From Asparagopsis taxiformis (lineage: Eukaryota; Rhodophyta; Florideophyceae; Bonnemaisoniales; Bonnemaisoniaceae), in contig JALQPE010002422.1 of assembly GCA_030407315.1 (NCBI GenBank), positions 62,001-126,000 of the forward strand: a stretch of 64,000 nucleotides of DNA. Reading direction: 5' to 3'. The translations under genes and the position numbers were made by a program. Below the pieces are notes generated by a model. That model saw only the letters and a list, made by a program, of their open reading frames with translations, was not told the DNA's origin and did not search any database. Each line of letters begins with the position of its first letter. The first letter of the stretch is position 1. Below, one piece after another: positions 10,555 to 39,589 of this stretch.

Positions 10555-10671
10555 TTTTTAGGGAAGAATAAAATGAATAACCAGATGCATCACATATGAA
10601 TTGTACACTCTAGGGCGGTGGTGGATTGGTGCAAAGTAGTGGGGAGAGGATCTGAGAGGAGGGAGGTATGC

Positions 10672-11772: not shown

Positions 11773-13635
11773 ATGTCTTGTCCGGACAGTATAAGAGAGG
11801 AAGCTGAGAGACGGGAAGCGCACTCGGAGGTACCACAATTGTGGATTTCATCGTCTACACAACATTTGAACAGAGAACTGATTGAACGAACTGAGATTGC
11901 AGGGATTACAATGGGAGACAATAGTATCATGAATACTACAGCGGAGAAGAGCAATTCTCCTTCTGCTGAAGAGAAAAGCATCACTATTGCTCAGTACAGC
12001 TCTTCTAAAGTGCAAGTTGATCCTCGCAAAGTGAAATTTCCGACAGTGACCTCCCGTTTGGTGCGACCGGGTCGTGTAAACGAACTGGCCAGCATTTTCA
12101 TGGATAGAGGTTTCTCTACCACTGGAACTATGATTACAGTCTGCAAAATGGAAGATAACGAAGGAGACGAGTTTTACTGCATCGATGGCTCTCATCGCAT
12201 AGCTGCTCTGCAACTATGCCTGGAGAAGTACTCAGGAAAGAACAGGGATTCCTTGGAATTGGTTTGGGTACAACAGTTGATTGCGCAGAACGGGCGTCTA
12301 ATTTTCGATGCGCTGGAGGTTCTGAAACTGTCTCTCGAAGCCAATATACAAACTCACGATGTCGCTTCTGTGAGCATTGCCGACAATGTCTGTGCGGTCA
12401 TAGAGTTTCTCAGGTTTTCCAACCAGATGGATCTTCCTGTTGTCCGGCTTATTCCTATTCTGGAAGAAGTGAGCTATATTCTGCCGTCCGACAGGAACCG
12501 TTCGGAGAACTCGTATAGGCAGTACATCAACATTGCGAAGGGGTTCAATCGCACAGACAGCGTTGCTTTCGTGTACTGGAGCTCTATCCCTAGCGTTTAC
12601 AATGCTTTGGATAGGAACAGAGAAATCGAGGATGCAAGAACCGAGGGAAGAGATCCGGACTTTTCTCGAATTGACTCTGCCGATATGTACGGGTGCGTGC
12701 TCGATCTTGTCAATAACGCAATATTCCGCAATGGCACGGACGGACGCGGGACGCGCGATAAGGAGTGGTTCCAGTGGTTTGTGCTCGAGATGACAGCGTC
12801 GTGGACAAGGATGAGGAGGAAGAGAGGACTTGTCAGAAATATCGGAAGCGGAAGCCCGTTCACGATGCGCACTTGGCTACTGGCTCTGTTGGCCATCTAT
12901 GATATGGCAGAGGTCGTCCGCAAATGGTTGAACTCTGCAACGATGGAGGAATTCGTGCGAACGGATTTGGCAGCAGAAAACGCGAAGGAGGTCGGGGATA
13001 ATGATCATCGCATTGGAGAGCGCATTGTATTCGTCCTTGTCGACTTTCATGACGACGTGGTAGACAGTAGCAGTCTGAGAACCAAGAACGGGATGTTTAC
13101 AAACAGTTTTTACGACAAACTGGAATATGCTACCGGGACAAAGGCAATGCAGGAGACGAAAGCGGAGGAGGAGAGGGAACGGAATCGCATGACCCCCGGA
13201 GAAATAGAAAAAGCACTTGTTGATGGCGCCAAAGCAGAAGACGAAGAAGCACCTACTGCCGCAGAACAGGGAAATAATTCTACAGAGAAGGAAACTGTGG
13301 AAACTTCTGGTCCTGTTCAAGCAGAAGAAGGAGTATCTGCCGAAGCCCAAGCAGAGCAGGAAGTTTCTGCTGTTGTGGAGGAAGAACAGGAAATTACTCC
13401 AAATGTGGTGGCTGAAGAAGTGATTCCTGCTGTCGCGACGAAAGCAATAGAAGAGGCACCTCTGAGCACCCCGAAAGAAGCAGAAGACCGTCCTGCCGCA
13501 GCAAAAGAGGGAGGACAGGAACGTCCTGCCACGCGTCTTGCAGCAGTTGAGAAGAGGGAAGCAGAACGTCTTGCTGTTCTCCAAAAAGAACAGGAACGAA
13601 GCTGCCTTTATGCGTTCCTTCCAACTCGAGAATGA
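11773..13635 (+). CDS. ParB-like (ParB/sulfiredoxin-fold) protein, copy 1
   Basis: 620 residues. Residues about 75-145 fit the ParB/Srx-like domain: an R.V....V..L....GF pattern ends in YCIDGSHRIAAL, the DGxHR signature (D138-R142). Residues about 188-215 (LEANIQTHDVASVSIADN) resemble the ENLQR-type segment that opens the ParB helix-turn-helix region, followed by a helical stretch to about 470. The last 140 residues are Glu/Ala-rich low complexity. Stop and next start overlap as ATGA with the dioxygenase gene. In copy 2 the two are a single frame, so this looks like one protein split by a 1-nt shift. An alternative start is Met 47 at 11911. DNA binding is inferred, and a nuclease or CTPase role is also possible for the fold. 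Confidence 0.65.
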   Translation: MSCPDSIREEAERREAHSEVPQLWISSSTQHLNRELIERTEIAGITMGDNSIMNTTAEKSNSPSAEEKSITIAQYSSSKVQVDPRKVKFPTVTSRLVRPGRVNELASIFMDRGFSTTGTMITVCKMEDNEGDEFYCIDGSHRIAALQLCLEKYSGKNRDSLELVWVQQLIAQNGRLIFDALEVLKLSLEANIQTHDVASVSIADNVCAVIEFLRFSNQMDLPVVRLIPILEEVSYILPSDRNRSENSYRQYINIAKGFNRTDSVAFVYWSSIPSVYNALDRNREIEDARTEGRDPDFSRIDSADMYGCVLDLVNNAIFRNGTDGRGTRDKEWFQWFVLEMTASWTRMRRKRGLVRNIGSGSPFTMRTWLLALLAIYDMAEVVRKWLNSATMEEFVRTDLAAENAKEVGDNDHRIGERIVFVLVDFHDDVVDSSSLRTKNGMFTNSFYDKLEYATGTKAMQETKAEEERERNRMTPGEIEKALVDGAKAEDEEAPTAAEQGNNSTEKETVETSGPVQAEEGVSAEAQAEQEVSAVVEEEQEITPNVVAEEVIPAVATKAIEEAPLSTPKEAEDRPAAAKEGGQERPATRLAAVEKREAERLAVLQKEQERSCLYAFLPTRE

Positions 13636-14510
13636 AGTATTATATCACAGAAGAAGACATTGATACAATCCGGACGGAGATAATGGAAGCAGCTGCAGGC
13701 TACTCTACTTTGGTATGTCCCCTCGGTTCTTGTGAAAGCCAACAATACTTCAGCTACCAGAGAAGAATGATCGACGAGCTTGGTTACGTGGTGTTGCAAG
13801 ACATTTTCTCTTCTACTACAGTGGGAGCAGCTACGCACGAGTTATTCACACAGATGGCCAGCACATTCCAAGGTACTACAAGTGGCTCAAGTGCAAGTCA
13901 GAAGAACCCGTGGAAACCACTTCGACCGAAAGACAGCACTGGTGTATTCAAGACGGACCGGAAAAGCATCTGCGATGACCTTGAGCAAGAAAGCGCGCGG
14001 CAGTACAGGAACAAGCTGATTCTGGAGCTAGGTAAGGCGATTTGTGCGGAGAACCTGAAGCTCGGGTTTGGAAGAGAAGAAGCGGTGGTCTTTCCAGAAA
14101 CGGGTCTTCGTCTGATTTTGACCGCAGAAGGTAGTCAGGAGCAACTTATGCATACCGATGTTCCCGTCCGTGAGGGAACTGGAACTGGTCCTCTCAACTC
14201 GCCATCATATTTCATGATGGCTGCTGGTGCGGATGGGTTCATCATTCGTATCGCCAAGTTCAGCCATGTGTGCCTAAGTCATCCAGCGAAAGACAAGTAC
14301 CGCGTGCCAGTGACGAACGTGCGCATCCCACCGTATTCCCTGCTTGTATGCCGAACGGACGTGTATCACGGAGGAATGGGATTCGCGGAGGGTCGTTCTT
14401 CGGTGAGGTACCAGCATCCTATCCGGTCCCATCTATCACTGCGAACTTCCAGGGAGAAGTTGCTACAGCCTCCCTTCAATGTCAACTACTGGGAGCGTTT
14501 AGATATCTGA
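13632..14510 (+). CDS. Fe(II)/2-oxoglutarate-dependent dioxygenase-like protein, copy 1
   Basis: 292 residues. The double-stranded beta-helix signature is complete: HTD (H174, D176) for iron, a distal His in DVYHGGMGF (H246) and an Arg 19 residues on (R265, in HPIRSH), which in this family binds 2-oxoglutarate. Between them runs a conserved PSYFMM..GADGF segment shared with copy 2. The family oxidises or demethylates nucleic acids, proteins or small molecules; the substrate here is unknown. Fusion to a ParB-like domain in copy 2 and residence in a transposon recall the TET/JBP genes of fungal KDZ transposons, but I cannot show membership of TET/JBP. The start ATG overlaps the ParB-like stop by 4 nt. 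Confidence 0.65.
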   Translation: MKYYITEEDIDTIRTEIMEAAAGYSTLVCPLGSCESQQYFSYQRRMIDELGYVVLQDIFSSTTVGAATHELFTQMASTFQGTTSGSSASQKNPWKPLRPKDSTGVFKTDRKSICDDLEQESARQYRNKLILELGKAICAENLKLGFGREEAVVFPETGLRLILTAEGSQEQLMHTDVPVREGTGTGPLNSPSYFMMAAGADGFIIRIAKFSHVCLSHPAKDKYRVPVTNVRIPPYSLLVCRTDVYHGGMGFAEGRSSVRYQHPIRSHLSLRTSREKLLQPPFNVNYWERLDI

Positions 14511-14760
14511 TGAAATTAGTTCTTAATAGCATTCTATGGCAGGCATCAAGGCCGCCTTCAAGTAAACGATGAAAGTTAGGCTAGTACATGACGTTTGCGT
14601 ATGTAGACGGGTCAGGGGATATACAATACTCAATTTAATATGAGAAGGGAGGAAACTATGGCGGGCACTACTAGAATAGAACAAGGTAATATCGCAGTCG
14701 TCTTTGGTTGCAACATTGAGGTGAGGAAGGCTTACAGATGATGCAGTTTCGCTGGGGTGC

Positions 14761-14937
14761 TGACAGCAAAGTCATCGTTACGATGACTTTGCTGTAAGAA
14801 ATCAAATCATTACAGCGGCCACAATTTTTTACCGGGTAAAAAATTCTTGCTGATTTTTTTACCCGGTAAAATTATCTCACCACTGTAATCAAACCTTTCC
14901 TTACAGCAAAGTCATCGTAACGATGACTTTGCTGTAA
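14761..14937. repeat. Palindrome cluster 2 (two copies)
   Basis: Copies at 14761 (centre TTA) and 14901 (centre TAA), in opposite orientation, around a spacer with TTTACCGGGTAAA-type dyads. They lie 250 nt downstream of the dioxygenase stop. Confidence 0.85.
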
Positions 14938-15537
14938 GCATCCCGGTAAACGGCTTCGGCTGTAAGCGGTTGGGAGTTTCGTCCGTCTCCCACCCTGGGA
15001 AGGGTGAGAAGGGAAGTGTGGAGCCGGGAACATCGTACAACGATGGTTTGGACGACTGTTGACGGCTCTGGGGAGCACTCTGCGTCGTGCAAGCCTGGTT
15101 TGCGCTGGCTGCACTACCTGGTATTGAACGGTTCTGTGCGCAAAGTTTACTCATGAAGGAGGTAGGGTGTTGTGTACCACACCAACCATAGTTACTAAAA
15201 TTTGCAGTGTACTCTAGTGATGTAATTATTATTCTAGTTTCTAACTATACAATGATATTAAGTAAGTCAGATGTGCACAGAGCATGGTCTAAGCCTAGCA
15301 CGGTAGAGAAAGATGGAAGAAAGATGGAAGGGTAGGCATGCAGAAGTATGAAGGCAGCAGTATGTGTAGACTATGGCAGTGGTAAGAAAATATTTCATGC
15401 ACCAAAGGGTGGGCAGAGTGACATTAGAGAGGTGGTGTGTAGGGGAAAGGTAGGTGGAGATGATGAAGGAGGACAACAGAAACGAGAGCGAGGGTTGAGA
15501 CCAACGGCTTACAGATGGAGCAGTTTACCAGGGATGC

Positions 15538-15860
15538 TTACAGCAAAGTCATCGTTACGATGACTTTGCTGTAAGGAAAGGTTTCATTACAGTGGCCATG
15601 ATTTCTTTACCCGGTAAAAAAATTCCTGGCCGCTGTAATGAAACGTTTTCTTACAGCAAAGTCATCGTAACGATGACTTTGCTGACCCATGCTTTAAAAT
15701 GGCTGTAATGAAACGTTACAGCAAATCGTAACGATGACTTTGCTGTCAGGAAACAAAACATTACAGTGGCCATGATTTCTTTACCCGGTAAAAAAATCCT
15801 GGCCTCTGTAATGAAACGTTTCCTTACAGCAAAGTCATCGTAACGATGGCTTTGCTGTAA
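15538..15860. repeat. Palindrome cluster 3 (four copies, two degenerate)
   Basis: Copies at 15538, 15651 (truncated right arm), 15717 (lacks GTC in the left arm) and 15824. Outer flanks form an imperfect inverted repeat of CTTACAG...GTTTACC...GGAT, as in a foldback element. Confidence 0.8.
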
Positions 15861-16093
15861 GGATCCTTGGTAAACTGCCTGAGCTGTAATTGTCGTACAA
15901 CGAAAAGTGATGTGGAAGGTTCGGATTGGTCAACCGCTGAATATCATTACCAGGGTGTATACTAATAGGAATATGTCAGATCTCTAAGTTTCGCCTATCT
16001 TACTCAGCTTACGCAGCAAAACAGCTTGTCGTTCAGATCTTCTTCTCTCTTTCTCAATCTTTCACTCTTCGTTTGTCATCACTCACCAAAGCA

Positions 16094-19000
16094 ATGGCTC
16101 AACAATCCCCCAACGCTTTCGACCGCCAGGTGCGCTCTGCCAGCCGCCGTGACAACGATTCTCCCACTCCTTCTCCCTCTCCTTCTCCTTCTCTGGCCCC
16201 CCCTGTCCCCATGGACGTTTGCGAAGCTGCTGCAGCGCTGACCCAGCTCAGCCCAGCACCTAAGCCCGTCCCCTCCCCCCCTTCCGCTTCCGATCCCGCG
16301 GTTGTCCCGACAATCGACGCTGGCGTTCCCGCAACTCCGCTTCCGGCTCAATCTGCCGAAGCGGCGCCAGCCGTCGAGGGATCTGGTGCTCCTCTGCCTA
16401 GCTCGCCTGCTCCGGACATGATCATCGCGTCCGGCAGCGACTTGGCAGAGGATGCGGAGAAGGTCGATGATCACAACGCTCGTGACATCGTACCGAACAA
16501 GCCTCTCCGCAGCACCAGGCTGGCCTACCCTGGCACAGTGCCCATCCCGGTGGATGTGGACTACGACATAAGTCCGGAGAGCTGCCGAAACATTCCAGTC
16601 TTCATTTCCCCTCTGGATGTTTCTCCTCCGGCAGTCGTGTCCAGGGTGGTCAGGCCGCATCGCGTTGATGAGTTGAAGAAAACGTTTCTCACTCAGGGAT
16701 TTTCCGTGATTGCTTCACGCGTGTCCGTCTGCGAGGTGATTGATTCCAATGCAAAAGTACGACTGCAATACGTCGATGGATCTCACCGAGTGACCGCGTT
16801 GAAGGCCATTCTCGAGTCGGCTGGACCTGCTCCTGCGAAGGACAGTCCAGAGTGGGAGGAGTTTGTCAAGTCTGACATCTACCGTCGCTTTGGAACTATT
16901 CCAGTCGACTTTCTCCTCCCACCGACTCGGCTTGGCCGGGATGTCTTCTGCTCCGAAGAAGTACTCCCGCTTTCACGGCTGATGAACTTCCACACCCACA
17001 ATGTCAGCGAGGTAACAGTTGCTGACAATGTGTGCTCTGTGATGGAGTTCATCAATATCCACCGCCTGGGAAAGAAGAAGATCGAGCCGACCGTTCAATA
17101 CATTAAAGAACGGAAAGCGCTGAGCTGGATTCGTCCGAGACAGCTCATGCGCTACGTCTCGATCGCGCGAGGGTTCAAGACCATTGAAAGCCCTGCTTTC
17201 AAGTACTGGTCGAGCATCCCGAACAGGCCGGAGTTCGTGCAGTTCTCTTCGACCGAGGATCTGGCTGGTTGTACGGTGAACTTGTTGTTCAATGGGTCGT
17301 TCAGGAGTGCTCCGGATGTGCAGAAGTGTTTCATCCTGGAGATGACGGCGCGCTACACTTGTAGCCGTCGGTCGGCCGGGCTGAAACCGTACTCGGTTGG
17401 TACCATTGGGCAGGAATGGATTGCTGGTTTGTTGGAAATCTTCGGGTACGTGAAGGAGGTGGCCGAGTACTGGAACGTGTCGGATGTGTTGAGGATGCTG
17501 GATGGGTCAATTCCCAGCGGGGTGACCCGAGCAAGAGCTTCGACATTCGCTCGCGCGTTGTCGAAGTTCTTGCTCAGATGGTCCCCAAGAAGGGGTGCTG
17601 GGCAGACTTCCGTCCCAAGGAAGGCCCCCCCGATGGTTACAGTTACGAAAATATTTTTCCCCGTAAGAAGTCTGTCTTCGGGAAGGACGCCAGGAAAATG
17701 CTCCTGCGCGTCACTGGGTACCGCGACATGCAATGCGGAAACGCTTTCACGCGATGTACCCAGACATCCCACATGCTGCGCTCCCAGCCACATGTGGTGA
17801 TGATGCCCCCATCCCTTCCTCTTCCAATTCCTTGCCCATCCCTTCATCCTCCATTCCTTTGCCCCCACCACCTCAACTGGAATCTTCCAGCAATTCCGAG
17901 GTTGCCCCTGTTCCTGTCTCTACCCCTGCCGTGTCGGCATCCTCCCCTGCGGTGACCCCGGTCAAGCCGACTGCGCGTGGTCCCCAGGATGGCAGCGAAC
18001 GCTCTGGTCCAGTTTCCCACGCCGGGACTGGTACCCCCAACCGTCCTGTCCAAGCCGCGCAGGAGCAGGTCTCACCGGCTTCGCAGCCTGAGCCTGCGAC
18101 TCCGGCTGCCGAGCAGCACCCTGCTGCTCCGGCCCCCGCTGTCGAAGCTTCCCGTTCTGCATCTGCTAGCAGTTCGGGAAGCTCCAGCGATGACAGTTTC
18201 GTCCCTTCACCATCCGGTGGGGTTGGACAGAAGACGGTTGCGAGGATTTCGACGGAGGGCCCTACTCCCGAGAATGTGGTCGAGGGCAGCAGTGCGAAGG
18301 GCGGTGCAGATCCTGACGAAGATGTCATTGAAGTCAGTGATTCTGCACCGCCCGGAGTGGAAACTTCTGGGAGGAAAGTGATGCCCAGAAGGAGTACCCG
18401 CCTGCAAGCGAGTCGTTCCGGTCGTGGTGGAACGGCGGGTGGTGCTGTGGAGGTCGTCGAGCTGGAGAGCGCCCCCGAGGATGCGGGTGAAAACTCCATC
18501 CTCGGGAAGCGTAACTTGGAAGCCGCTTCTGCGACGCCCGAGCCTTCTACCAAAAAGAGAAGGCTCGGTGAGACTTCATCAAAGTCGTCGTCAAAGAAAT
18601 CCAAGTCGGCTTCCCGAGGTCGCTCTCGGGAGCCGGTTCTCCAGTTCGACGACGCCCAGGAGAATCCCATTCCCGACAGCATCGTCGATGAGAATGTGGC
18701 CGCCGTTCTCCCCAGCGCAATTGCGTCTGGCAGCCGGATGAAGTACTATATGGAAAGTACGACGGTGGAGACGGTTCGGGCGGAAATGAGGGCGGCAGCA
18801 TTCCAGGCAGCTGCATCGCCGGGTGCTGAGGATACGGTGGTGGACAGTACTTTGCGGTGAAGAAGGCATTGTTGGAAAACTTGGGGGTTATTGTTTTGGA
18901 AGGCCTGTTGGCATCGTCCACGGCTGGTAATGCGACGCATGAGTTGTTCGGTCACTTCGCTAGGCAGTTCCCGCTGGTTGAGGAGGTTGAAAAACCCTCC

Positions 19001-19722
19001 CAGCAGTCTGATTCTAACGATGACGACAGGGAGCCACAGGACGAGCCGCCAGCTTTCGCAAAGCCCGGCTTCGATCCTTCGCCGTGGCAGTTCATCCACA
19101 ACGTGGGTGATGCGAAGGACCGCATCGATGGTGGTCGTGGGCGCCTCTCTCTGCCGCGGCGTGAGTTGTGCGACAAGTTGGAGGAGGGGAATTTGGAGAT
19201 GTATAAGAACAAGTTGGTGGCAGAGCTTGCTCTTGGTGTTTGTGCGGAGTTCTTGAAGTTGGGAATGGAGGGTGAGGATCCTGTCTTCTTCCCGAAGACA
19301 GGATTGCGGCTGCTTCTTACAGCAGATGGGGCTGCGGACCAGGATGGGCACACGGACTTCAAGGTAGCGACGAATAGTGTTGCAGGACCTACCGAGTCTC
19401 CATCATATTTCATGATGTCGAGCGGAGCAGATGGATTCTCTATAGTAGTTGCCCCTTATAGTCATGTATGCCTGGCCAATCCGGGCGCCGATATGTGGAA
19501 GGTTCCCATTCATCTTTATGTGCCACCCTATTCCGTATTGGTTGGTCGCGGTGACCTTTACCATTACGGGGTCGGCTTCAGCGCGGAGATCTTCCTGCAG
19601 GCGAGAAGTTAGTCTATGGCCTGCCCACGCGCGGCCACATCTACTTGAAGACGGAGAAGGACGTCCTCACGGACCACATCCACACCGTCGAATATTACAA
19701 GTACGATAGGAGCAATAGATAG
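16094..19722 (+). pseudogene. ParB-like/2-oxoglutarate dioxygenase fusion, copy 2, with four frameshifts
   Basis: Homologous along its length to the two genes at 11773-14510. A Pro/Ala/Ser-rich N-terminus is followed by the ParB-like signature YVDGSHRVTAL (about 16770), the NFHTHNVSEVTVADN segment, a long Ser/Pro/Glu linker with NLS-like KKRR, then the dioxygenase (HTD near 19349, YHYGVGF near 19560, PTRGH near 19630). No stop separates linker and dioxygenase start (MKYYM at 18738), so this copy shows the fused architecture. The frame breaks near 17519, 17733, 18842 and 19600, always in the same direction. At 17519 the element 2 copy has the extra base. The breaks could be decay or single-base sequencing losses. 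Start chosen at ATG 16094. Confidence 0.7.
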
Positions 19723-20227
19723 CATATCAGAAGTATTAAAACCTATACTACTGTTCCCTGCTATAAAGTTCTGTCTTTCTCATCTCAACATTGTTACCTT
19801 AGCCCATTTTTCAGTTCTCATCTATACATCTGTCCTTCATCTCATAGTTTAGTGCTACTCAGCAGATTGCTTGCTACTTTTTAATATTAGTCTACAACGT
19901 TATATGATTTTACTAGCTAGGCCGTAGGGGGAGACTAGTTTCAACCCTTGACAACGCGCAGATTTCGACTACGAGAGCCGTCACTGTGATAAATTATTTG
20001 TAGAATTTTCGTCTATCTTCCCACCTACACTAGGCTACCTATATATATACAGGGTATAACCTGAACAGAGACCACGTGAGGTAAAATACTCCTGAGAGCT
20101 GCTCACAGCCGTACAGACCTTTGCTGAGCAATTTACCCGACTTCAAACTTCGCTTCTTACCTTTACCAGGATGAGAGAAGGACGAAACTCCCTGCTGCTT
20201 ACAGCCGAAGCCGTTTACCAGGGTTCC

Positions 20228-20516
20228 TTACAGCAAAGTCATCGTAACGATGACTTTGCTGTAAGGAACCGTTTCCTTGCAGTGGCCGAAGAATTTTTTA
20301 CCGGGTAAAAAATCAGCAAGAAATTTTACCGGGTAAAAAAATTGTGGCCGCTGTAATGATTTGCTTTCTTACAGCAAAGTCATCGTTACGATGACTTTGC
20401 TGTAAGAAAACGTTTCATTACAGCGGCCACAATTTTTTACCCGGTAAAGAAATCATGGCTGCTGTAATGATTTGTTTTCTTACAGCAAAGTCATCGTAAC
20501 GATGACTTTGCTGTCA
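20228..20516. repeat. Palindrome cluster 4 (three copies)
   Basis: Copies at 20228 (TAA), 20369 (TTA) and 20480 (TAA), with the same spacers as cluster 1. Confidence 0.85.
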
Positions 20517-21108
20517 GCACCCCGCCGGAACTGCCAAAGCTGTAAGCAGTCTGGCTTCACCCTCTCCCCCATTTCTCTACTCCGCCTTCATCATCCCAGT
20601 CTCTCTGGTGACGACTGACGCCTTTCGTTTCCCCCCTCACGCCCCCTCTCGCAATGAAATACTCGTCTATTACCACGATAGGCTACTCGTACTGCCGCCT
20701 TAATTTTCCTCTACACACACCCTCCCATCCGTCTCTTCCGTACTACGATCCTAGGCTATCCTACCTTACGATTATAGTTGTATAGTGAGTAGCTAGAGTC
20801 CTACTTATTGACGACTATAGTGCACCGGAACCGGCGCCGGTTCCCGCCCGGGCGGGTTAAATATATATTTTATGCCGTGAGGCACAGGTACCATATGGTC
20901 GCTGTGGCTCACGGCACAAGGAGTAGATTTTGCCACCAACAGCCGTCCAAACCATCCTCTCGTGATGTTCCCTACTTCACACTTCGCTTCTCACGTGAGA
21001 CAGCAGGGAGTTTCTTCCTTCTCCGATCTTGGTAAAGGTACCTTTACCAAGATGGGAGAAGGACGAAACTCCCTGCTGCTTACAGCCGAAGCCGTTTACC
21101 AGGGTTCC

Positions 21109-21145
21109 TTACAGCAAAGTCATCGTAACGATGACTTTGCTGTCA
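21109..21145. repeat. Single 37-bp palindrome 3' of the methyltransferase gene
   Basis: One copy (centre TAA), about 300 nt beyond the methyltransferase stop. The flanking GCTTACAGCCGAAGCCGTTT sequence also flanks cluster 4 (20198). Confidence 0.85.
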
Positions 21146-21450
21146 GCATCCCCGGTAAACGGCCCGCACTGTAATGGGGTGACTGCTTCTCCTACATCGC
21201 TCTGTTACTGGTGTTCTACATGCTGCGTTGCTACACAATTTCGCACTCACATCTTTCTAGTTTCTCTCCTTTTCGTATCCATAGGTATAGCAGTAGAAAA
21301 GTGGATAGTTTGCACTCCAGGCCGCAGATGCCTTCCTGCAGTCATGTCACGATTGTTGTAGTGTAGTCTATAATATCTAGCGCTCTTGGAAGATGATGCA
21401 CAGTCTATTGTCTCTGTCAATGCGTGTTTACTCAAATCTATCAAAGTAGC

Positions 21451-24400
21451 TCAGTTAGCTGGCCAATATTTTCTACCATAGTCAGCAAATATCTCCTCAT
21501 CAGCTTCAACGTCTCTGGTCAGAACGACCTTGACAGCATGGGGATTCTTGATATTTGAAGCAAAGTCCGGTTTGTCTATGGCATCGCCTTGTCGAAACTC
21601 GGCTGACTGTGTTCGACTCACCTCGGTCGCTTTCTCCGTCCCGTCAATGACCCGACAATCATTGAGGTAGCTGGTACAATTATAGACCGCTGGAACGAGC
21701 CAGACCTTCCGAACAGGTGCACCCCTCCCTATGTACGTGGTTTCCAATTCCATGTTGTAGTCCTGGAACCTCTCTCCTGTGCACCCAAATCCTTCCGGGC
21801 CGTACATCACTGATCTCTGCGGTTCTGAGTCTCGAATCTTCGCATAGAAAATCGTCCCGTTGTACCAGCCAATGACCGTCCCCTTCTTCAGTTTCTTCGC
21901 CGCGAATACGCCAAACCCACCACCTCTTACCTCCGATTGCGAAACATAGACACCGTAGAATGCGGCATCAGCAGCCAGAATCGCGTCCGGGTCTATGCTC
22001 CAAAATGAGTGCATGTCCTCGGCCGGCCACTGGTCCATAGGCACCCCGCTCAATCTGTGAAGCATAGACCCGTCCTTCTTCATTGACGCAACGAACACAA
22101 GCAGATGGTTCGGCAATGCTGTCACAGCAGGTAAACCTTCTGGTGCATCTGAGATGTGCTTCTGACGAAGCCTTGGAGCTTTTCCTGTGACCGGTACCGA
22201 CTCGTCCCCAAGAATACTCTCCACCTCACGCTGCAAGATCCCCCCATATCGCCCGGCTTTCACCTCACTGACGAAAGCATGCAGTATCCACTCCTGCGAT
22301 GCATCGTGGCACCTTTTTTCCTTCTCACACCCAATGAACCGACGATACGTACCATCCCTCAACGTCATACACGCTATGGCTGTGCTGTATGTTCCCGAGA
22401 AGAAATCCATCACGATATCGTTCTGCTTCGAAAATCGTTCCAGAAGCTCACGAAGAGTGGTCAACGCCTTCTGCTCATGGCGCAGTCGGTTGTTCTGCCC
22501 ATCGTATTGAGCTTCACCAGCCGACAACCTCGGAACGTTGTCAATCGCGTTGGTGAACCCAGGGTGCCTCGATATGTCCGGATTGTGCAACCTGTAATCC
22601 ACCATATCGTATGCAGCCATACCCTTCCCCCGCTTATACGCATGGATAACGAAATCGTGCATATTATGCAGTGTGCACGTTTTCGTCGATGGATTGGACG
22701 TAAAGCTGTGTGGTCGGCGAGATAGCACGACTGGAACACTGTCCACAATCATCTTGCCAGGCTCGGCATTTCTGATTGCATCCATCCATGCCACGAGTTG
22801 GCGCACGCTGGAATAGATTAGAGCATGACCGCCAGGCCGAAGAACTCGAACTATTTCACACGCAACACTCGCCAACTCTTCCGGCTCCAGAATATCGTAC
22901 TCCGAGTTTTCTCTGCCGCCTTCCCGCCTCGTGTTGAATGGAGGATCAGTGAGCACAAGCTGAACACTGTCCTCCAACACGCCATCTTCCAGGAAACTAA
23001 TTTTGTCCTCCACCTCTTTGGCTACATCAGTGGCGTCACAATTCACAGTGTGAATGTAACGCCCCATCACAGCTTCCAGCTTGGTGACATATTCTGGCTT
23101 GGTTTCCTTTCCGACGTCAACGAGCGGTGCTTCTGTAGGCGATACAGTGTCAACCTCCATAGCGTCATCCTCGGCCGCACCTTCTCTTGTTGCTGTTTCG
23201 CTAGCAACCGCCGCATTATCGTCCTCTCCACCACCGCGCTCCAGCCTAGCCTTCTTCCTCTGTGGCTCCAGACTATCCTCTTCTATATCCTCGCTGCCAT
23301 TGTTTGGCACTGCTGCGGATATTTCCATCTGCGCAGGTGCACCTTCAAGGATGCCAGGCTCGGGCGTATCCTCAAGACTGTGCAACTCATCCATGGTCAG
23401 AGGAAGCTTTCGTTGCTCTCGGGTTCGCAATAACCAAGCCTTCAGCCTCCTCTGACCATCCAGGGCATGAGATGTGTTCAACTTGGCTCGCATGAACGAG
23501 TTCAAGCCGAACTTGTCAGGAGTGTCGAAAAGCAAGGCTCGAAGTCTCTGCATCAGCTGACCACGCTCGGCGAAAACATTCACCTCAGTGACACATTGGC
23601 GTATCGACAGCAGGAAGGCGCTTGTCAATGATCGCAGCCTTGCATCCACAGCCACTGGAAGGTCGGCACAGAACCCGTTTTCACTGTCTACAGTTTTCGG
23701 GACAATGGTCAGGTTTTTCCGATGCTCCTCGACCGCGCAGCCATCAGACCGATTCGGGAGTGACCTGAAGCAAAGGCTCGCAGGATCGAATACTATGAAC
23801 GGCCAGCACATCGATTCAACATCTTCATACCCCAACACTCTTGCCCCGGTATCCCACGCAGCTAACACACGGTCGACAACAAATCCAAGCTGGTTGGCTT
23901 GCGCACTGGATGTTGCAATTCCAACCATTCCACCACCACCAATGGCCCCGGATGTGGCTCTGGCCCGCCTAGATGGCACACTGCCCATCTCTTTACTGCG
24001 AATAGCCAAGATACACTGGCACATCATAACCATCAGCCTCCTGAACCGCTTCTGGCTAGCCTGCAAAGAATCTTGCATGTCGGATGTAGCGCCGTCCAGA
24101 AAGTACCTGCTCGAAAGCAGTTCGCGGTTCAGTGGAGAGGACAATTCTCCGTGGGGTGTCTTGCCAAACATTTCGACGGCACGAGAACTAGTCACCCCCA
24201 CCTGTTTCGGAAACTCAACCATCCTCGGAGAATCACCCATCTCTGCATTGAGTCCCCATGCATGACAAAACATTTGCCACAGACGCAAATCAATCGTACT
24301 CGAATCTTCTGCTCGGTGATACGGCCGAAGCACAGCCAGGATAGACATGCATGAGCTGTACTGCGGTTTACCACTCAGGCTTGAAGCAATTTGGCCGCTT

Positions 24401-24927
24401 GGATCGCAGGATTTGATCCAGCCCAACACATCAGCCATCCTCACAGACGAAATATGAGCGTACTTTTCCTTTCCTTTTTGGACCCAGTACTCGTCTCTGA
24501 GATCAACGGCGATCATCAGATACTCAACAAACATCATGCGCCTTTGCAGGCCTGCAATGTCGTTGGATGTCGTTGCTCTCAAACGGTCCAGCACAACAGC
24601 AGTACTGCTGTTGGTGTCCACCACGATAGACTCTTCTCGCATAGGAATCGTAACGCCAGGAGGAAAGACGCCCTTCTCCATTCCACGTACAATTGCCATG
24701 CAGCGGTGCGCTCCATCCAATATCTCCAGAACGCCTTCTCGAAACCTGCCAGTCACGAGATGAGCTGTGTCATAACCGCTGTTGCGAATGCTCTCCATGA
24801 GCGCTTCCACATGACTTGCATCAACATCGCGAATCGATACGAATTTGCTGACTTGATTGGGGTCGATGAACACCCATCCGTCATGCTTTTCACCGTGATT
24901 GTGGAACGTTCCTTCCATGGCGAACAA
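21451..24927 (-). CDS. ParB-like / N4-N6 amino DNA methyltransferase / SET-domain fusion protein
   Basis: 1158 residues with three recognisable modules. (1) Residues about 15-120: ParB/Srx-like, with DGAHR at 71-75, then a helical region like that in the dioxygenase partner proteins. (2) Residues about 610-880: a beta-class amino methyltransferase. The catalytic DPPF (661-664) precedes the AdoMet motif DFFSGTYSTAIA (841 on), the order typical of the CcrM-like N-4/N-6 methylase family. (3) Residues about 985-1155: SET domain, with RGGGFGVFAAKKLKKGTVIG (1001 on), NCTSYLND (1083 on) and the closing FADYG. Between (1) and (2) an acidic linker carries an NLS-like QRKKARLERG. The first would methylate adenine N6 or cytosine N4 in DNA, the last lysine. 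Frame fully open, so probably intact. No copy in element 2. Alternative start Met 4. Confidence 0.85.
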   Translation of the reverse strand: MFAMEGTFHNHGEKHDGWVFIDPNQVSKFVSIRDVDASHVEALMESIRNSGYDTAHLVTGRFREGVLEILDGAHRCMAIVRGMEKGVFPPGVTIPMREESIVVDTNSSTAVVLDRLRATTSNDIAGLQRRMMFVEYLMIAVDLRDEYWVQKGKEKYAHISSVRMADVLGWIKSCDPSGQIASSLSGKPQYSSCMSILAVLRPYHRAEDSSTIDLRLWQMFCHAWGLNAEMGDSPRMVEFPKQVGVTSSRAVEMFGKTPHGELSSPLNRELLSSRYFLDGATSDMQDSLQASQKRFRRLMVMMCQCILAIRSKEMGSVPSRRARATSGAIGGGGMVGIATSSAQANQLGFVVDRVLAAWDTGARVLGYEDVESMCWPFIVFDPASLCFRSLPNRSDGCAVEEHRKNLTIVPKTVDSENGFCADLPVAVDARLRSLTSAFLLSIRQCVTEVNVFAERGQLMQRLRALLFDTPDKFGLNSFMRAKLNTSHALDGQRRLKAWLLRTREQRKLPLTMDELHSLEDTPEPGILEGAPAQMEISAAVPNNGSEDIEEDSLEPQRKKARLERGGGEDDNAAVASETATREGAAEDDAMEVDTVSPTEAPLVDVGKETKPEYVTKLEAVMGRYIHTVNCDATDVAKEVEDKISFLEDGVLEDSVQLVLTDPPFNTRREGGRENSEYDILEPEELASVACEIVRVLRPGGHALIYSSVRQLVAWMDAIRNAEPGKMIVDSVPVVLSRRPHSFTSNPSTKTCTLHNMHDFVIHAYKRGKGMAAYDMVDYRLHNPDISRHPGFTNAIDNVPRLSAGEAQYDGQNNRLRHEQKALTTLRELLERFSKQNDIVMDFFSGTYSTAIACMTLRDGTYRRFIGCEKEKRCHDASQEWILHAFVSEVKAGRYGGILQREVESILGDESVPVTGKAPRLRQKHISDAPEGLPAVTALPNHLLVFVASMKKDGSMLHRLSGVPMDQWPAEDMHSFWSIDPDAILAADAAFYGVYVSQSEVRGGGFGVFAAKKLKKGTVIGWYNGTIFYAKIRDSEPQRSVMYGPEGFGCTGERFQDYNMELETTYIGRGAPVRKVWLVPAVYNCTSYLNDCRVIDGTEKATEVSRTQSAEFRQGDAIDKPDFASNIKNPHAVKVVLTRDVEADEEIFADYGRKYWPAN

Positions 24928-25431
24928 AGGTAGAGTTTTTAAGAAAGGGATAGTTGGTTGCTGCTTGACCAGGGTGGCGCAAAGCAGAAGTTGGTTGTTT
25001 AAAACAAAGTGTCAGCGAGTGGTAGCACTTCGGTGGCTGTTTCCTTTCCACCCCTGTCCGAACCTTTACAAGATAACTACATCGACTGTTAGCTCAATAA
25101 TCAATGTAATACTAAAGTAATACTCAAAATATTTTTCCATGCAATTTATTGGGCCGCGTAACATCTCTAAGCGTATCTTTGTAGTCCAATCGTATGCATC
25201 CGACATTCACTTCTAGAACGATTATTCACATCAAATTTTATGCTGCAATCAGTTCATGGCAGACATCATCCACACTGACGTGTCAATTTTGTCAATTGTC
25301 CATTCTATTTCTACACCACCTAAACGTCTCTTCTCGACCTTTCCAATCCTCCTAGTATATACTACTCTTTAGCAGAAGGTAACGGTTAGGCTTTCACTAA
25401 TACAACAATTCTATCCCATAGCTATCCCAAC
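24928..25431. promoter_or_regulatory. Divergent promoter region between methyltransferase/SET gene and the 453-residue gene
   Basis: A 504-nt gap separates two genes transcribed away from each other. A TATA-like AGTATATACTAC lies near 25353, 75-85 nt before the plus-strand ATG. No palindrome is present here, in contrast to the gaps at gene 3' ends. Shared control of the two genes is inferred from position. Confidence 0.45.
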
Positions 25432-26793
25432 ATGCTTCCTCTCGCTCCAAACGACGTTATAGAAGTTCAATGGGAACTTCGGCCGTTTGGGAGGAAACGA
25501 AAAATTGTGTGGTGGTCTGCAATCGTCAAGGAAATTACTCAGGTCAAGACTGAAACAGACCCATTCCTCCATTCATTGCTCGAATACAAAGCTGAATATG
25601 GTTTCGACTCTACCCTTTCTCAAGTCAAGATTTCAGATCGTAACGAGCTCGTCGACAAGGATTCCGGAAGGGTTCTCCCGTGGCGAAGTGGTGAGCTTCG
25701 CAGTATGGACTCACCTGCATCCCCAGCAGAGAGAGACCCGGACTACGGCATTGACCACACTCGCCACCGCCACCGCGGCATCCTTCAAGATTGCACTGCG
25801 GATCAAATGAAGAAGACCATAGCAGAAATGCTGGCAAGATTGGAAAAGCTGGAGTCAGCTGCCAAACATCCTCTTCCCCCTCCATTCGATTCCAACAGCT
25901 CCATGACCTCCTCTGCTCTGACTGTATGTAGCATTCTGTTTCAGAAGCTTGGTGTGTACACGGACAAGCCCCTCTCCCTCCGGATGACAAAATACGAGCA
26001 CTCCAGGGGAATGCGACAAACATCGCAAGAAGAAATCAGAGTACAGGCTGACTGCTCCCTTGCTCAATTCCGCACTATTGCCATTCAATGCAAGGCGAAA
26101 GAGAATCGTGACGTTCTCTTCCAGTCGTCCTTTGAGGACATTACCTTTCCCTCTGGAAATGAGTCGGATCTTTCCATCATTTTCCCCACCTTTCAGGCAC
26201 TATGTGACTGCATAGGTACCTCGCAACACGGGTTCCAGAAAATATTGGTGAAGAGCAGGGCGGAACGCGATGGAGGCAGCTCATCGATTGTCCGAATTTT
26301 AGGAAATCTAGTCGACGTTGGTTGCTCTCATGATGCTCCTTCTTCCGCCTTTCTCGTCGGCTCATCTGCTTACGTCCTGTCCAGCCCAGACCAACGTATG
26401 ACAGTTCTCTGCAGGGACTCTTACGAGTTTGACCACGTCAACAATACATTTTTACATCCCCTATGTCTTAGCCAACTATCACAGTCTAGCATCGTGGACT
26501 CTTTCCACCTACGTGATAAGGCTACTGTTACCTATGGAGCAACGTTTTCGTTACTGTGGAGACGTATTCAGCGCCGAGCTTGTTACAGCACTTTCCAGCC
26601 TCTATCAACCGCAGAGACGTTTGGTACACTACATCTACGCTTACCTTGCTGTATTTTCAGTGGTACTACTACATGCCAGGAGCTTGAAGACATTGGCTAT
26701 GAGGCTATCTCTCGTCTTGGCTTCAATGCGGATTCAGACACTACCCACCCACCCTCTCCTCCACCTGCCACCTGCAGTCCGGAGCAAAAATGA
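25432..26793 (+). CDS. Unidentified protein with possible Tudor/chromo-barrel-like N-terminus
   Basis: 453 residues. The first 70 (NDVIEVQW..., WWSAIVKEI, LEYKAEYGF) show the spacing of aromatic and charged residues seen in small beta-barrel readers of the Tudor/agenet kind; this is a weak resemblance and unproven. A short coiled coil (about 125-145, MKKTIAEMLARLEKLES) follows, then a mixed region with no recognised motif. The gene is divergent from the methyltransferase/SET gene. A reader protein would suit a modification system, but nothing in the sequence proves it. The ATG is preceded by CCCAAC. Confidence 0.55.
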   Translation: MLPLAPNDVIEVQWELRPFGRKRKIVWWSAIVKEITQVKTETDPFLHSLLEYKAEYGFDSTLSQVKISDRNELVDKDSGRVLPWRSGELRSMDSPASPAERDPDYGIDHTRHRHRGILQDCTADQMKKTIAEMLARLEKLESAAKHPLPPPFDSNSSMTSSALTVCSILFQKLGVYTDKPLSLRMTKYEHSRGMRQTSQEEIRVQADCSLAQFRTIAIQCKAKENRDVLFQSSFEDITFPSGNESDLSIIFPTFQALCDCIGTSQHGFQKILVKSRAERDGGSSSIVRILGNLVDVGCSHDAPSSAFLVGSSAYVLSSPDQRMTVLCRDSYEFDHVNNTFLHPLCLSQLSQSSIVDSFHLRDKATVTYGATFSLLWRRIQRRACYSTFQPLSTAETFGTLHLRLPCCIFSGTTTCQELEDIGYEAISRLGFNADSDTTHPPSPPPATCSPEQK

Positions 26794-27068
26794 TAAAGCA
26801 CACCTATCCGTAGTTATCCTGTTCCTGGGTATTCCATTCTAGAGCTCCTGTGGCCATCAATTTCTAGTAAAGACGGATACCCTCGCCCCTTCCTACTTCG
26901 ACTATTCCACTACCTGTCTCTGCGCTTTTCCTTCGACTTGACACTATCGTCTGACTGGTTTCCTGATGTCTCGTATCTATCTACTTCCATCTATTACAAA
27001 ATTCAACTCAACAGAAATTTTATTTCTTCATTCTTCGTCTACTACACCGAAACTGGTTTCATCCGATA

Positions 27069-28661
27069 CTACTCCCCTTCATTCTCGATTTCATCATCGA
27101 CGAATACCTTCACATATTCTGCATCTCCTCCGTCCTCTTCCATAGACCTGAAGCTCTCCTCCAGCACTGATTCCCCCCCATCGTCTACATTCAGTTCTTC
27201 ATATCTATCACGCGATATAGTCAAAACCTCCTCATTCATGAACCGACTACTCACCCGCTCCCCGGGAAGAAGCAGTTTCACTACTTCATTGATTTCCCGG
27301 ATTTGCGCTCCTTCCACCTCTGCTCCACTTTGAAATTTCAAAATCGTTCGGAACCCGTATGCAAGTATGTAGATGAATTGCAAGGAGTATTCTGAACGTC
27401 GCAGGAACATTTTCTTATCAGAACATTGCGTGTAGGCGACTGCAAAGTTCAGTGCAACCTCTACTAAATTGATCCTCCTAGTCAAAAACCTCTTGTCCGG
27501 TTCTCCAATTATTTGAACTTCGTACTCGACTTTGAATAGCATTTCATTTCGCAACGCAATGAAGTCGCGAAGAATCTTCATATTCTTGTCATCCATTGCT
27601 GCACGCTCCGCTGCATTCATTTTCCTCTGCGCCGAGTACAGACTTGGAACTGACTCAATGTCCAGCCCACCGTCGTGCAAATGATGCTCCATGCGGACTG
27701 AGCCTTGAAACCCACTGTATAGAACGAATCCAAGATCTCGGATGAACCGGTTTCGCACATGATCTCTGGACTTGTTCATAAACCCAGTCACTGCCGTGAG
27801 TGCCGATTTCGTCACAGTGATGCCTACCTCCTTTCTGTGCAACGGCCCATTGTCACCAACCTTTCTTCGCTTCTGCTTTCGAGCGGCCCCATCACTTCCC
27901 TCGGACGTCCCATGCATTCCATCCATGCGAGCAGAGTCCGTTCCGCGAATTGTCTCCTCAATAGTCCCGGTAGTCACATACCCCCGCGCCCTCCACCGTT
28001 CGATACCTTCCGACGTTCCATTGGAGCTGGAACGGTCTCCTCCCTGTCTGAAAGAATTGTTTTCACAAGTATTCTTGATTAAAGAGGTCACAACTGGGCA
28101 GCGCAATTCAATGTGGTTCCGACCGGCAAGCGTCCTATTGAACACATACTTTCGCTCATTGCTCTGCCTGGCGAACATCAGCGTATTGATTAGCTGGCAT
28201 CCGTTTAAATGCCTATCCCTCTTATCCGCCATTGCCTTCGTGTACGTTGGAACAACAGCACACAGCACAGCACACACCATTTCGAACGTGAACGATTTCT
28301 CCGCATCCTGCGCAATGCGGAGACGTTCCCTGTCCTTCTCGGAGGCGATCTTCTTCGGATGTCCTTGTCCCTGGCTCAGAAGCCCATCGACGATGCTCTT
28401 GACCTCCTGCATATCGGTGTTTAGCATGGAGACAGTCTTGGCGACATTTCCGAGAGTCTCACGTAATTGAATGGTGCTCTTCTCGACGGCATCCATTTTA
28501 TCACTCAGGGCTTTCAGCTCTGCAGTGATGTTCGAAAAGCCCTCACGCGTTATTTCGGAAAATGCGGCGATGCTTACGGAGGTTTCGGGATTCATGTTGA
28601 ACTTGCAATTGGAGTTTGCTAAAAGGAGAAGTGGAGAAGTGCTTTGAAGGAAGGATGTCAC
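27069..28661 (-). CDS. Unidentified coiled-coil protein
   Basis: 530 residues, open throughout. Residues about 30-95 form a heptad-rich coiled coil (FSNITAELKALSDKMDAVEK and onward), so oligomerisation is likely. The middle carries a Lys/Arg cluster (KQKRRK) that could serve as a nuclear signal, and the C-terminal 60 residues are strongly acidic. No family recognised. Met 23 (codon at 28593-28595, AACATGA context) may be the real start, since the first 22 residues are hydrophobic but lie just before the coiled coil. It is the last gene before the right end, convergent with the 453-residue gene at 275 nt distance. CACTA elements often encode a second, subterminal-repeat-binding protein; that role is possible but only by analogy. 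Confidence 0.6.
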   Translation of the reverse strand: MTSFLQSTSPLLLLANSNCKFNMNPETSVSIAAFSEITREGFSNITAELKALSDKMDAVEKSTIQLRETLGNVAKTVSMLNTDMQEVKSIVDGLLSQGQGHPKKIASEKDRERLRIAQDAEKSFTFEMVCAVLCAVVPTYTKAMADKRDRHLNGCQLINTLMFARQSNERKYVFNRTLAGRNHIELRCPVVTSLIKNTCENNSFRQGGDRSSSNGTSEGIERWRARGYVTTGTIEETIRGTDSARMDGMHGTSEGSDGAARKQKRRKVGDNGPLHRKEVGITVTKSALTAVTGFMNKSRDHVRNRFIRDLGFVLYSGFQGSVRMEHHLHDGGLDIESVPSLYSAQRKMNAAERAAMDDKNMKILRDFIALRNEMLFKVEYEVQIIGEPDKRFLTRRINLVEVALNFAVAYTQCSDKKMFLRRSEYSLQFIYILAYGFRTILKFQSGAEVEGAQIREINEVVKLLLPGERVSSRFMNEEVLTISRDRYEELNVDDGGESVLEESFRSMEEDGGDAEYVKVFVDDEIENEGE

Positions 28662-29130
28662 GCTTAGTACAGCAGTGCTGTAGCAAATATCATTCCAGTG
28701 GATGCATCCATCCTGTTCTACTCTACATAATAATAATGCTTCCCAGTGCTCCGTAACGGTTATTTTTCATAATTTAGTGGTGGATGGTGCGTATTCTTTC
28801 CTTTGCCACCACCCACGTCCTGTGCATACCACACCTCGCTACCAGACTGACGTCTCCTACTCGACACTTTCAATGCAAAGATAGATAAGTATAATTTGAA
28901 ATGCTAAACTCAACATAATATAGCTACTCTGTACATTTTCTCCTTACGGTGAGACAAACGAGATATGTTCAATCTTCCCAATCTTTCATTCTACGTCCTA
29001 TTCAACATCTAGCTTCCCTGCACCCAACTATCTGTAAAGCACCATCACAATTACTATAGTCGTATACCACACACCATTCCAGTATTTACCTTCACACCAA
29101 CACTATGCACCACATTTCCTGTCAAGTCCA
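28662..29130. other. Non-coding right arm of element 1
   Basis: AT-rich, no gene. From about 29035 it matches element 2 (from about 47255). Confidence 0.6.
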
Positions 29131-29493
29131 CTCCACCAGACAGTGTTGTGAACCAATGCACGGTACTACCCGCAGACAATACAATTTGCTATCTACACTA
29201 CTGTCTACAGATTTACCCAGACAGTGCAGTAATACAATACAATGCATTGCCTCAGACAGTAAAATGTACTGTCTGCACATACTGTCTGGCGGCAACACTT
29301 CCGGACAGTAAAATTTACTGTTCTGGACAGTAAATTTTACTGTTTTTGGTACTGTCCAGATTTCGTGCCAGTTTACTGCTGCAGCAGTATTCTGAAATTT
29401 ACAGACAGTAAATTTTACTGTCTCCGCGCACTGTCTTGGCCAGACAGTAATTTTTACTGTCTCAGACAGTAAATTTACTGTCTTTTTTCATTC
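29131..29493. repeat. Right subterminal repeat array of element 1
   Basis: Many ACAGTAAAATTTACTGT-type dyads and single GACAGT/ACTGTC motifs, copied in element 2 at 47370-47728. Denser in perfect dyads than the left array. Confidence 0.8.
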
Positions 29494-29507
29494 TCAACAC
29501 CGTAGTG
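29494..29507 (-). repeat. Right terminal inverted repeat of element 1
   Basis: TCAACACCGTAGTG, the exact reverse complement of the left terminus. Confidence 0.85.
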
Positions 29508-32804: not shown

Positions 32805-33475
32805 CACTACGGTGTTGAAAAGGGGGCCTCAGACAGTACTGCGAGACAGTGATTTTTACTGTCTGAGACAGTAAAAATCACTATGCGGCAAATGAAAATT
32901 AATGCCACACTTGGAGACAGTGATTTGCACTGTCTGGCAGACAGTACGGAACACTGTCTGCAGACAGTAAAAAACACTGTCTCACAGTACTGTCTGAGGC
33001 AGTGAATGGAGACAGTAAAAATTAATGATTTATTCAATAGTTGGATATGATGTAATTTACTGTACTGGGCAGTGTTGGCGGATAGTGTTTTGTATTGGCC
33101 AAGGCAACATGGCCGGATAGTGAAATACGCTGCCTGGGACAATAGATGGAACCAACACGGTGCACTGTCCTGGGCAGTACCTGGAGACAGTGATTTTCAC
33201 TGTCCTGGGCAGTACCTGGAGACAGTGATTTTCACTGTCCTGGGCAGTACCTGGAGACAGTGATTTTCACTGTCCTGGGCAGTACCTGTAGACAGTATTT
33301 CGTGCTGCCCTGGGCAGCACCTGTAGACAGTACTTTGTGCTGCCCTGGGCAGCACCTGTAGACAGTACTTTGTGCTGCCCTGGGCAGCACCTGGAGATAG
33401 TACTTTGTGCTGTCCTGGGCAGCACCTGGAGACAGTATTTCGTGCTGCCCTGGGTAGCACCTGGAGACAGTAAAA
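32805..33475. repeat. Left terminus and subterminal repeats of element 2
   Basis: Near-identical to 4363-4975, differing mainly in the number of 'cctgggcagtacctgg' units, so the array changes by unit gain and loss. Confidence 0.85.
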
Positions 33476-34174: not shown

Positions 34175-34312
34175 TCATATCCGTCGGAGACAAAGCAACA
34201 ACTTTGGCCTTGGAAGCCGTATTGATGATCTAAAACTTACGCTTTGGAAGCAGTTTAGATGATCTATACGGCTTCCACGGCCAGGGTTGTTGCTTTGTTT
34301 CCGACGGATATG
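34175..34312. repeat. Large hairpin in the left arm of element 2
   Basis: Same inverted repeat as 5664-5800. Several arm bases differ from the other copy (GCAGTA to GCCGTA on the arm and ACGGC on its partner), changes that keep pairing. Confidence 0.7.
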
Positions 34313-39570: not shown

Positions 39571-39589
39571 CTGTACAATGATCTCCAGG

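Follow-up and report, generated by a model that had tools for sequence, protein, structure and literature searches.

A methyltransferase-SET fusion gene carried by a multicopy CACTA-ended DNA transposon in the red alga Asparagopsis taxiformis

The DNA analyzed here, a stretch of 64,000 nucleotides from Asparagopsis taxiformis (assembly GCA_030407315.1, contig JALQPE010002422.1, positions 62,001 to 126,000 of the forward strand; hereafter the window), contains a gene for a single protein, P0001, in which a DNA amino-methyltransferase domain and a SET domain follow a putative ParB-like N-terminal module. This gene lies within a multicopy CACTA-ended DNA transposon of 25,145 bp, a context that an earlier note on the same DNA had missed. 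The methyltransferase and SET domains are conserved together in diverged relatives of the protein, the family of the transposon has moved recently, and the gene shows constraint in a sample of copies biased towards intact proteins. We propose, with about even confidence, that P0001 is a transposon-encoded epigenetic writer of two chemistries, namely methylation of adenine (less likely of N4-cytosine) and of lysine, which would manage the epigenetic state of the element itself. The activity of the enzyme, its target and the direction of its effect (activation or silencing) are inferred.

The fusion protein and its relatives

The earlier note had described a single uninterrupted frame at 21451-24927 of the minus strand, and this frame is indeed present; it is open throughout, and no introns splitting the modules are required. 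Its start had been placed on a TTG codon. The first ATG lies at 24918 and yields a protein of 1155 residues, so that all residue numbers given in the note are 3 too high. In the ATG numbering, the motifs are DGAHR at 68-72, DPPF at 658-661, DFFSG at 838-842, RGGGFGVF from 998 and FADYG to 1148.

The claim that a ParB-like module, a beta-class methyltransferase and a SET domain stand in one polypeptide is borne out by Pfam for the latter two, both over the cut-off: N6_N4_Mtase at 652-875 (PF01555, E 2.3e-16, spanning profile positions 1-220 of 221) and SET at 1001-1148 (E 4e-6). For the ParB part, which is separated from the methyltransferase by about 500 residues, the agreement is partial. DGxHR-type motifs form the active-site arginine pocket of the ParB/sulfiredoxin superfamily, and DGAHR is found in all four members that reach this region (P0001 and its relatives P0002, P0003 and P0004), a further relative, P0005, being without it. 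The PHROG family 'ParB-like partition protein' matches P0003 (E 6.2e-5), with no such match at E 0.01 in P0001 and P0004. The ParB part of P0001 lies under detection in Pfam, giving no match, and a profile of the N-terminal region compared with the PDB gave sulfiredoxin as the sole match (E 1.3, not significant).

The relatives were obtained from a search of 5.8 billion proteins in which 8000 candidates were scored. P0002 is 99% identical to P0001, P0003 shows 43% identity over 99% of the query, P0004 shows 38% over its best-aligned 46% and 31% over the alignment, and P0005 is a protein of 742 residues that lacks the ParB part. In the database's Pfam labels, SET appears for P0002 and P0003 alone; our rescan placed the methyltransferase over the cut-off in P0003, P0004 and P0005, and SET over the cut-off in P0003 (2.2e-5) and P0004 (7.1e-5). 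The same layout is found in relatives at 43% (P0003) and 31% (P0004) identity. In P0003 the methyltransferase is best kept (57%), followed by SET (56%), the middle region (37%) and the linker (26%); in P0004 the values are 46% for the methyltransferase, 34% and 35% for SET and ParB, which are level, 20% for the middle region and 21% for the linker. This conserved architecture is independent of the biased copy sample described below.

An alignment-based protein search revealed no further member, and among 102 stretches of genome_contigs, picked out by a scan of limited reach that was seeded with a pair of short peptide patterns, none was confirmed as a relative. Four relatives in phage records are methyltransferase-only, at about 25% identity. 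An origin as a giant-virus or phage gene was considered and ruled out, the five IMG/VR loci found being weak, methyltransferase-only matches (25-40% over 58-184 residues); the same five loci gave no match to six other query proteins, comprising five proteins of the element and one transposase relative.

The transposon and its ends

Similarity between the window copy and other copies ends at 29507 in copy C390 and at 29509 in copy C1573; in C1569 the direct match ends at 28689 and an inverted duplicate extends to 29507. The right end of the element reads TAGTG and has a matching left end at 4363, with CACTACGGTGTTG at both ends. Five exact 13-mers of the end are present in the window, compared with 0.07 expected when up to one mismatch is allowed. 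Of the 28 GACAGTA/TACTGTC motifs in the element, 25 stand no more than 600 bp from one of its ends. Subterminal repeat arrays are a feature of CACTA elements; the element shows such arrays and also the inverted 5'-CACTA...TAGTG-3' ends of EnSpm/CACTA.

The reference target site duplication of EnSpm/CACTA is 3 bp. In the C1573 copy, the ends of which are 24,981 bp apart (with 5.8 kb of interior not included), GGG stands on both flanks; no clean target duplication is visible in the flanks of the window copy (CCA/CCG) or in those of C390 (CAT/CGA). Duplications of 2-5 bp are described for the wider CMCT group (PMC12730594). The surroundings of the window copy also differ from each other, the left flank (1-4362) being GC-rich (62%) and the right flank (29505-30077) resembling a Gypsy-like polyprotein at its chromodomain end (Chromo, E 0.014, under the cut-off). 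As the two flanks are unlike, the ends of this copy may stem from separate events.

Abundance and variation of the copies

The genome examined comprises 141.5 Mb in 3156 contigs. This size and the lack of a confirmed relative in the genome_contigs scan, limited in reach, make a prokaryotic contig unlikely; the size and the retrotransposons present fit a eukaryote. In a scan for copies of the gene, the best 40 of 3828 candidates were scored. These include the copy in the window; every one of the 40 spans the full length at 99-100% identity and contains no stop. A single host gene is ruled out by this multicopy state. Chance and a fusion by assembly error are likewise ruled out, both by these copies and by the 43%-identical relative, in which these parts recur across 99% of the query. 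At the nucleotide level, the methyltransferase motif (38 bases round DPPF, up to 2 mismatches) was found at 433 places and a transposase motif at 467, the reversed control giving 0 in each case; the left end was found at 1036 places (control 0).

For linkage, 100 exact places were listed for each of the two motifs, many of them on short contigs. On contigs represented in both lists, a methyltransferase place lies 7-18 kb away, to the expected side, for 23 of 37 transposase places.

Of the 40 best-scoring copies, 20 were examined for variation. Over the whole gene, 44 variants were observed, 32 synonymous, 12 replacement and 0 stop, against 13, 29.5 and 1.5 expected under the same mutation spectrum (binomial P 4e-9). 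The methyltransferase and SET domains together hold 10 synonymous and 0 replacement variants, whereas the rest of the gene holds 22 and 12 (Fisher P 0.04); SET alone has 5 and 0.

Recent movement of the family

A second member of the family, shorter and devoid of the methyltransferase-SET gene, lies to the right of the first one in the window, nested in a retrotransposon classed as Copia-type from an RVT_2 match. The direct repeats flanking this retrotransposon (30210-30576 and 50790-51156) are identical over 367 of 367 bp. When the shorter element is removed together with a 2-bp TG duplication, 439 codons are open across the site, versus 306 and 249 in the other registers. Dropping 5 bases also retains the frame, but those flanks differ, as do the 3-bp flanks GTG/TGT. 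The open frame across the empty site indicates that the family moved after the retrotransposon had inserted, and that the duplication there was probably of 2 bp, not 3. A third left end (CACTACGGTGTTG) at 39509, inside the shorter element, suggests an internal duplication or a nested remnant.

Predicted chemistry

The earlier assignment of the methyltransferase to the beta class holds, since motif IV (DPPF) precedes the motif-I-like DFFSGTYST, the permuted order of this class, in agreement with Pfam PF01555. The domain is most similar to bacterial and phage enzymes: the PDB profile matches are DpnA, CcrM and MboIIA, and phage methyltransferases also match. These closest solved relatives are adenine enzymes, either so named or known to be such. 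Most bacterial N4-cytosine enzymes carry SPPY (PMC8885841). DPPF or DPPY points to adenine-N6; as DPPF is present here, adenine-N6 appears likelier than N4-cytosine as the target, on this residue argument alone.

The SET profile matched 58 distinct PDB chains at E <=0.05, nearly all of them named lysine methyltransferases (EZH2, KMT2, KMT5A, SETD7, EHMT2 and others). The best match was EZH2 (2.6e-5), with KMT2C, an enzyme of histone H3 lysine 4 (H3K4), at 9.2e-5. In the profile alignment to EZH2, P0001 keeps the GxG and D-Y-G motifs (GGGFGVF and FADYG). The substrate of the SET domain is not readable from these profile matches together with its altered core, which is described below. NCBIfam gave only matches below the cut-off (CcrM, PRK13699 and others for the methyltransferase region; LegAS4 for SET) and hence no family name; in the PDB the linker matched LINE-1 ORF1P (0.007), which was taken as chance. 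The earlier note had further seen in this protein a link between adenine-N6 or cytosine-N4 DNA methylation and lysine methylation; what stands of this is that the domains are joined, the one resembling adenine enzymes and the other lysine methyltransferases.

Possible roles of the protein

A mechanism that we regard as plausible and testable would run as follows. The element, presumably moving by cut-and-paste, has reached hundreds of nearly identical copies. The ParB-like and middle regions may recruit the enzyme to element DNA, where the methyltransferase would place N6-methyl groups on adenines, plausibly including those of the adenine-bearing subterminal repeats, and the SET domain would methylate lysine on nearby histones or on another chromatin protein. 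Jointly, the two domains would set the chromatin state of the element such that it remains expressible and transposable, and the dioxygenase-like proteins encoded beside them may oxidize or remove these marks. The transposase (44%, P0007) and the methyltransferase-SET protein (43%, P0003) have equally diverged relatives, as if they had been travelling in related elements. A bolder version, in which an autonomous transposon family carries its own toolkit, with a single-chain writer of N6-methyladenine (6mA) and histone lysine methylation and with ParB-guided dioxygenase erasers, giving a host-independent state that enabled a genome-wide burst, is possible but rather doubtful.

Several observations weigh against a writer of this kind. 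The ParB and dioxygenase assignments in the element are weak by sequence. Motif I of the methyltransferase reads FSGTY or FAGTF, the last G of FxGxG being replaced by Y or F in all five aligned members. The usual core motif of SET domains, NHxCxPN, is absent in three aligned members, which have ND-C-R, ND-S-R and ND-P-R instead; in P0005 the SET domain is under the cut-off (0.0078) and has lost both the GxG and the DYG residues, showing that SET can decay in this protein family. P0003 and P0004 are known as proteins only, without an observed transposon context. With respect to linkage, 23 of the 100 listed transposase places are linked to a methyltransferase place, 14 on shared contigs are unlinked and 63 are on contigs without a listed methyltransferase place, although 23 of 100 is a lower bound because of contig ends and unlisted inexact matches. 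The 1036 left ends against 433 methyltransferase places suggest that many element copies lack the gene. Finally, the copies used for the analysis of variants were taken from the 40 best-scoring of 3828 candidates and are thus biased towards intact proteins, which affects the overall ratio of synonymous to replacement variants and, to a lesser degree, the contrast between domains.

The same protein could serve to limit the element rather than to maintain it, by marking the copies for silencing through DNA amino-methylation plus repressive lysine methylation and so holding the number of copies at a tolerable level, like the N4CMT/SETDB1 loop of bdelloids but within one protein. There, a bacterial-type amino-methyltransferase and SETDB1 variants jointly act on transposons (PMC8885841), and among our SET profile matches EZH2 ranks best and KMT5A/SETD8 and EHMT2 also appear. 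We nevertheless consider such a self-limiting role unlikely, as the H3K4 enzyme KMT2C is nearly as good a match as EZH2, the methyltransferase motif is DPPF and not SPPY, and hundreds of near-identical copies do not suggest self-limitation. A role in transposition itself, in which the ParB-methyltransferase part would nick and methylate element DNA and thereby time or protect transposition according to strand or replication state, with SET accessory or degenerate, would draw on the nicking ParB domain of the bacterial ParB-methylase Bce_0392 (PMC5512222) and would agree with the altered SET core and the degraded SET of P0005. This, too, is improbable in our view: SET is over the Pfam cut-off in P0001, P0003 and P0004, and its variants among the 20 copies, a biased sample, are all synonymous.

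Transposons often carry cargo, and the gene might be no more than that, a host or viral gene captured and multiplied with the transposon and useless to it. The shorter element in the window does without the gene and left ends outnumber methyltransferase places, which would be expected of a passenger; on the other hand, the methyltransferase and transposase motif counts are close (433 and 467), the 40 scored copies, which are the best-scoring ones only, contain no stops, and the same architecture recurs in relatives at 43% and 31% identity. Passive carriage thus seems to us very improbable. The transposase (44%, P0007) and the methyltransferase-SET protein (43%, P0003) have equally diverged relatives, as if they had been travelling in related elements.

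Relation to known proteins and elements

The earlier note knew of no described protein with this order of domains. ParB and an adenine methylase in one protein are already known in bacteria, as in Bce_0392 of Bacillus cereus (PMC5512222). Among the matches listed from the open-licence PMC literature, there was no fusion of a DNA amino-methyltransferase with SET and no amino-methyltransferase in a CACTA-type element. Given that ParB-methylases are known in bacteria, what is likely to be new is that SET has been added and that the gene has entered a transposon.

The bacterial and phage ParB-methylases, including polyvalent proteins of phages and conjugative elements, resemble P0001 in combining ParB/sulfiredoxin and amino-methyltransferase modules in one protein and in being carried by mobile elements (PMC5512222). 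They differ in that here about 500 residues lie between the modules, SET is added and the carrier is CACTA-ended; identity to the phage enzymes found is about 25%. In bdelloids, N4CMT, a chromodomain fusion, together with SETDB1 likewise ties a bacterial-type beta amino-methyltransferase to chromatin lysine methylation and to transposons (PMC8885841). N4CMT, however, belongs to the host and combines SPPY with a reader domain, whereas the protein described here has DPPF, a writer domain in the same chain and a transposon as its carrier.

DNA transposons with genes for epigenetic enzymes and CAC...GTG ends have been described, with TET/JBP dioxygenases in EnSpm/CACTA and other DNA transposons and SET in HarbingerS and MuDR of Phytophthora (Kojima 2025, PMC12730594). 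In comparison with the elements presented in the relevant parts of that paper, a DNA amino-methyltransferase or methyltransferase-SET fusion is found only here, and the dioxygenase-like proteins of the present element matched no TET/JBP Pfam family. Retrotransposons with cytosine-C5 DNA methyltransferases (DNMTs) in dinoflagellates and charophytes are a further case of transposable elements with a DNA methyltransferase (PMC5890265); both the C5 enzyme class and the element class differ from those found here, and SET is not mentioned for them among the matches listed.

When exons were searched singly for C5 DNA methyltransferase (PF00145), the present genome gave 0 matches, against a control in which 10 of 14 genomes were positive; for MT-A70, neither this genome nor the control gave a match. 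Whatever DNA methylation the genome bears could consequently stem largely from the element itself, as far as C5 enzymes are concerned. An active enzyme would join amino-methylation of DNA directly and physically to lysine methylation in one chain, and this on a selfish element and not in the host. The range of transposon-borne epigenetic enzymes (SET, TET, DNMT) would then extend to adenine-type methylation, sporadic 6mA or N4-methylcytosine in eukaryotes would have a source beyond the MT-A70 enzymes, and hundreds of natural copies would be available for comparing mark, expression and mobility.

Further genes and repeats

The positions of the principal features are given in Table 1.

Table 1. 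Features of the CACTA-ended element and of the shorter element in the window
Feature	Position	Strand	Basis
Whole element, CACTA-ended DNA transposon, 25,145 bp	4363..29507		Similarity limits among copies; CACTACGGTGTTG at both ends; left-end count
Left terminal inverted repeat CACTACGGTGTTGA, 14 bp	4363..4376	+	End comparison
Left subterminal repeats GACAGTA/TACTGTC, 12 copies	4390..4960		Motif count
Transposase frame, 1267 residues, CMC-like by CxxC and acidic residues; downstream open reading frame (ORF) 7180-10554	6751..10554	+	48 relatives
ParB-like (DGSHR) and putative 2-oxoglutarate (2OG)-Fe(II) dioxygenase; ORFs 11773-13635 and 13632-14510	11773..14510	+	Motifs, copies
Second ParB-like (DGSHR) and dioxygenase-like pair, three overlapping ORFs in this copy	16073..19612	+	Motifs
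Palindromic repeats between converging genes	20129..21174		Variable among copies
ParB-middle-methyltransferase-SET protein P0001, 1155 residues	21451..24918	-	ATG start; Pfam, relatives, copies
SET domain, residues 1001-1148	21475..21918	-	Pfam, PDB profile, relatives
N6_N4_Mtase domain, residues 652-875, motif IV DPPF, motif-I-like DFFSGTYST	22294..22965	-	Pfam, alignment, PDB profile
ParB/sulfiredoxin-like module, residues 10-150	24469..24891	-	Motif DGAHR, PHROG, PDB profile; weak by sequence
ORF of 453 residues	25432..26793	+	Equal length in 3 other copies inspected; no family match; gapped alignment in 5/20 copies
ORF of 508 residues, coiled-coil-like N-terminus	27069..28595	-	Equal length in 3 other copies inspected
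Right subterminal repeats GACAGTA/TACTGTC, 13 copies	29199..29482		Motif count
Right terminal inverted repeat (same 14 bp)	29494..29507	-	End comparison
Second element of this family, shorter and lacking the methyltransferase-SET gene, nested in Copia-type retrotransposon	32805..47742		Ends, empty-site test

The transposase, which we take to be TNPD-like in its look, is broken in the window copy by one in-frame stop at codon 107. Among its 48 relatives in the protein database, P0006 is 99% identical at 1267 residues. In the query and 19 of these relatives, D400, D486, C505, C508 and E797 are invariant, a pattern that fits C(2)C transposases, the catalytic roles being putative and the H(3-4)H pair unplaced. 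Such transposases are described for EnSpm, Plavaka and kin (PMC12730594). In the DDE transposases of EnSpm/CACTA the C(2)C motif stands between the second D and the last E. The frame has no Pfam match, Transposase_21 (PF02992) included, PDB searches with it gave no match, and one of 20 scanned transposase sequences touches Plavaka at E 0.059. PF02992 was found elsewhere in the genome at 38 places, 34 of them over the cut-off and none in this contig. With a transposase that lacks a Pfam match and no Transposase_21 in the contig, we refer to the element as a CACTA-ended, CMC-like transposon and not as a proven member of EnSpm. The 38 places with Transposase_21 point to further, distinct families of CACTA type in the same genome.

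The first of the two ParB-dioxygenase-like genes is split in the window and forms one ORF of 1040 residues in C390 and C1569. In the dioxygenase-like C-terminal domains, HTD and YH are invariant across the 4 sequences compared from the 2 paralogues, and an HxD...H metal triad is a feature of 2OG-Fe(II) dioxygenases. These proteins gave no match in Pfam (TET/JBP included) or in the PDB. The presence of two such genes in the same element as the methyltransferase suggests a possible eraser beside a writer.

For the 453-residue ORF, 23 synonymous and 25 replacement variants were counted, against 13.0 and 33.2 expected together with 1.8 stops (P 0.0016); 5 of the 20 copies contained gaps.

Clusters of palindromic repeats, several of which follow gene ends, were found at 10664-11093, 14730-15900, 20129-21174, 38267-41500 and 42588-43072. 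Part of them contain the core CTTACAGCAAAGTCATCGTTACGATGACTTTGCTGTAAG, and the cluster at 42588-43072 repeats with a period of 49 bp.

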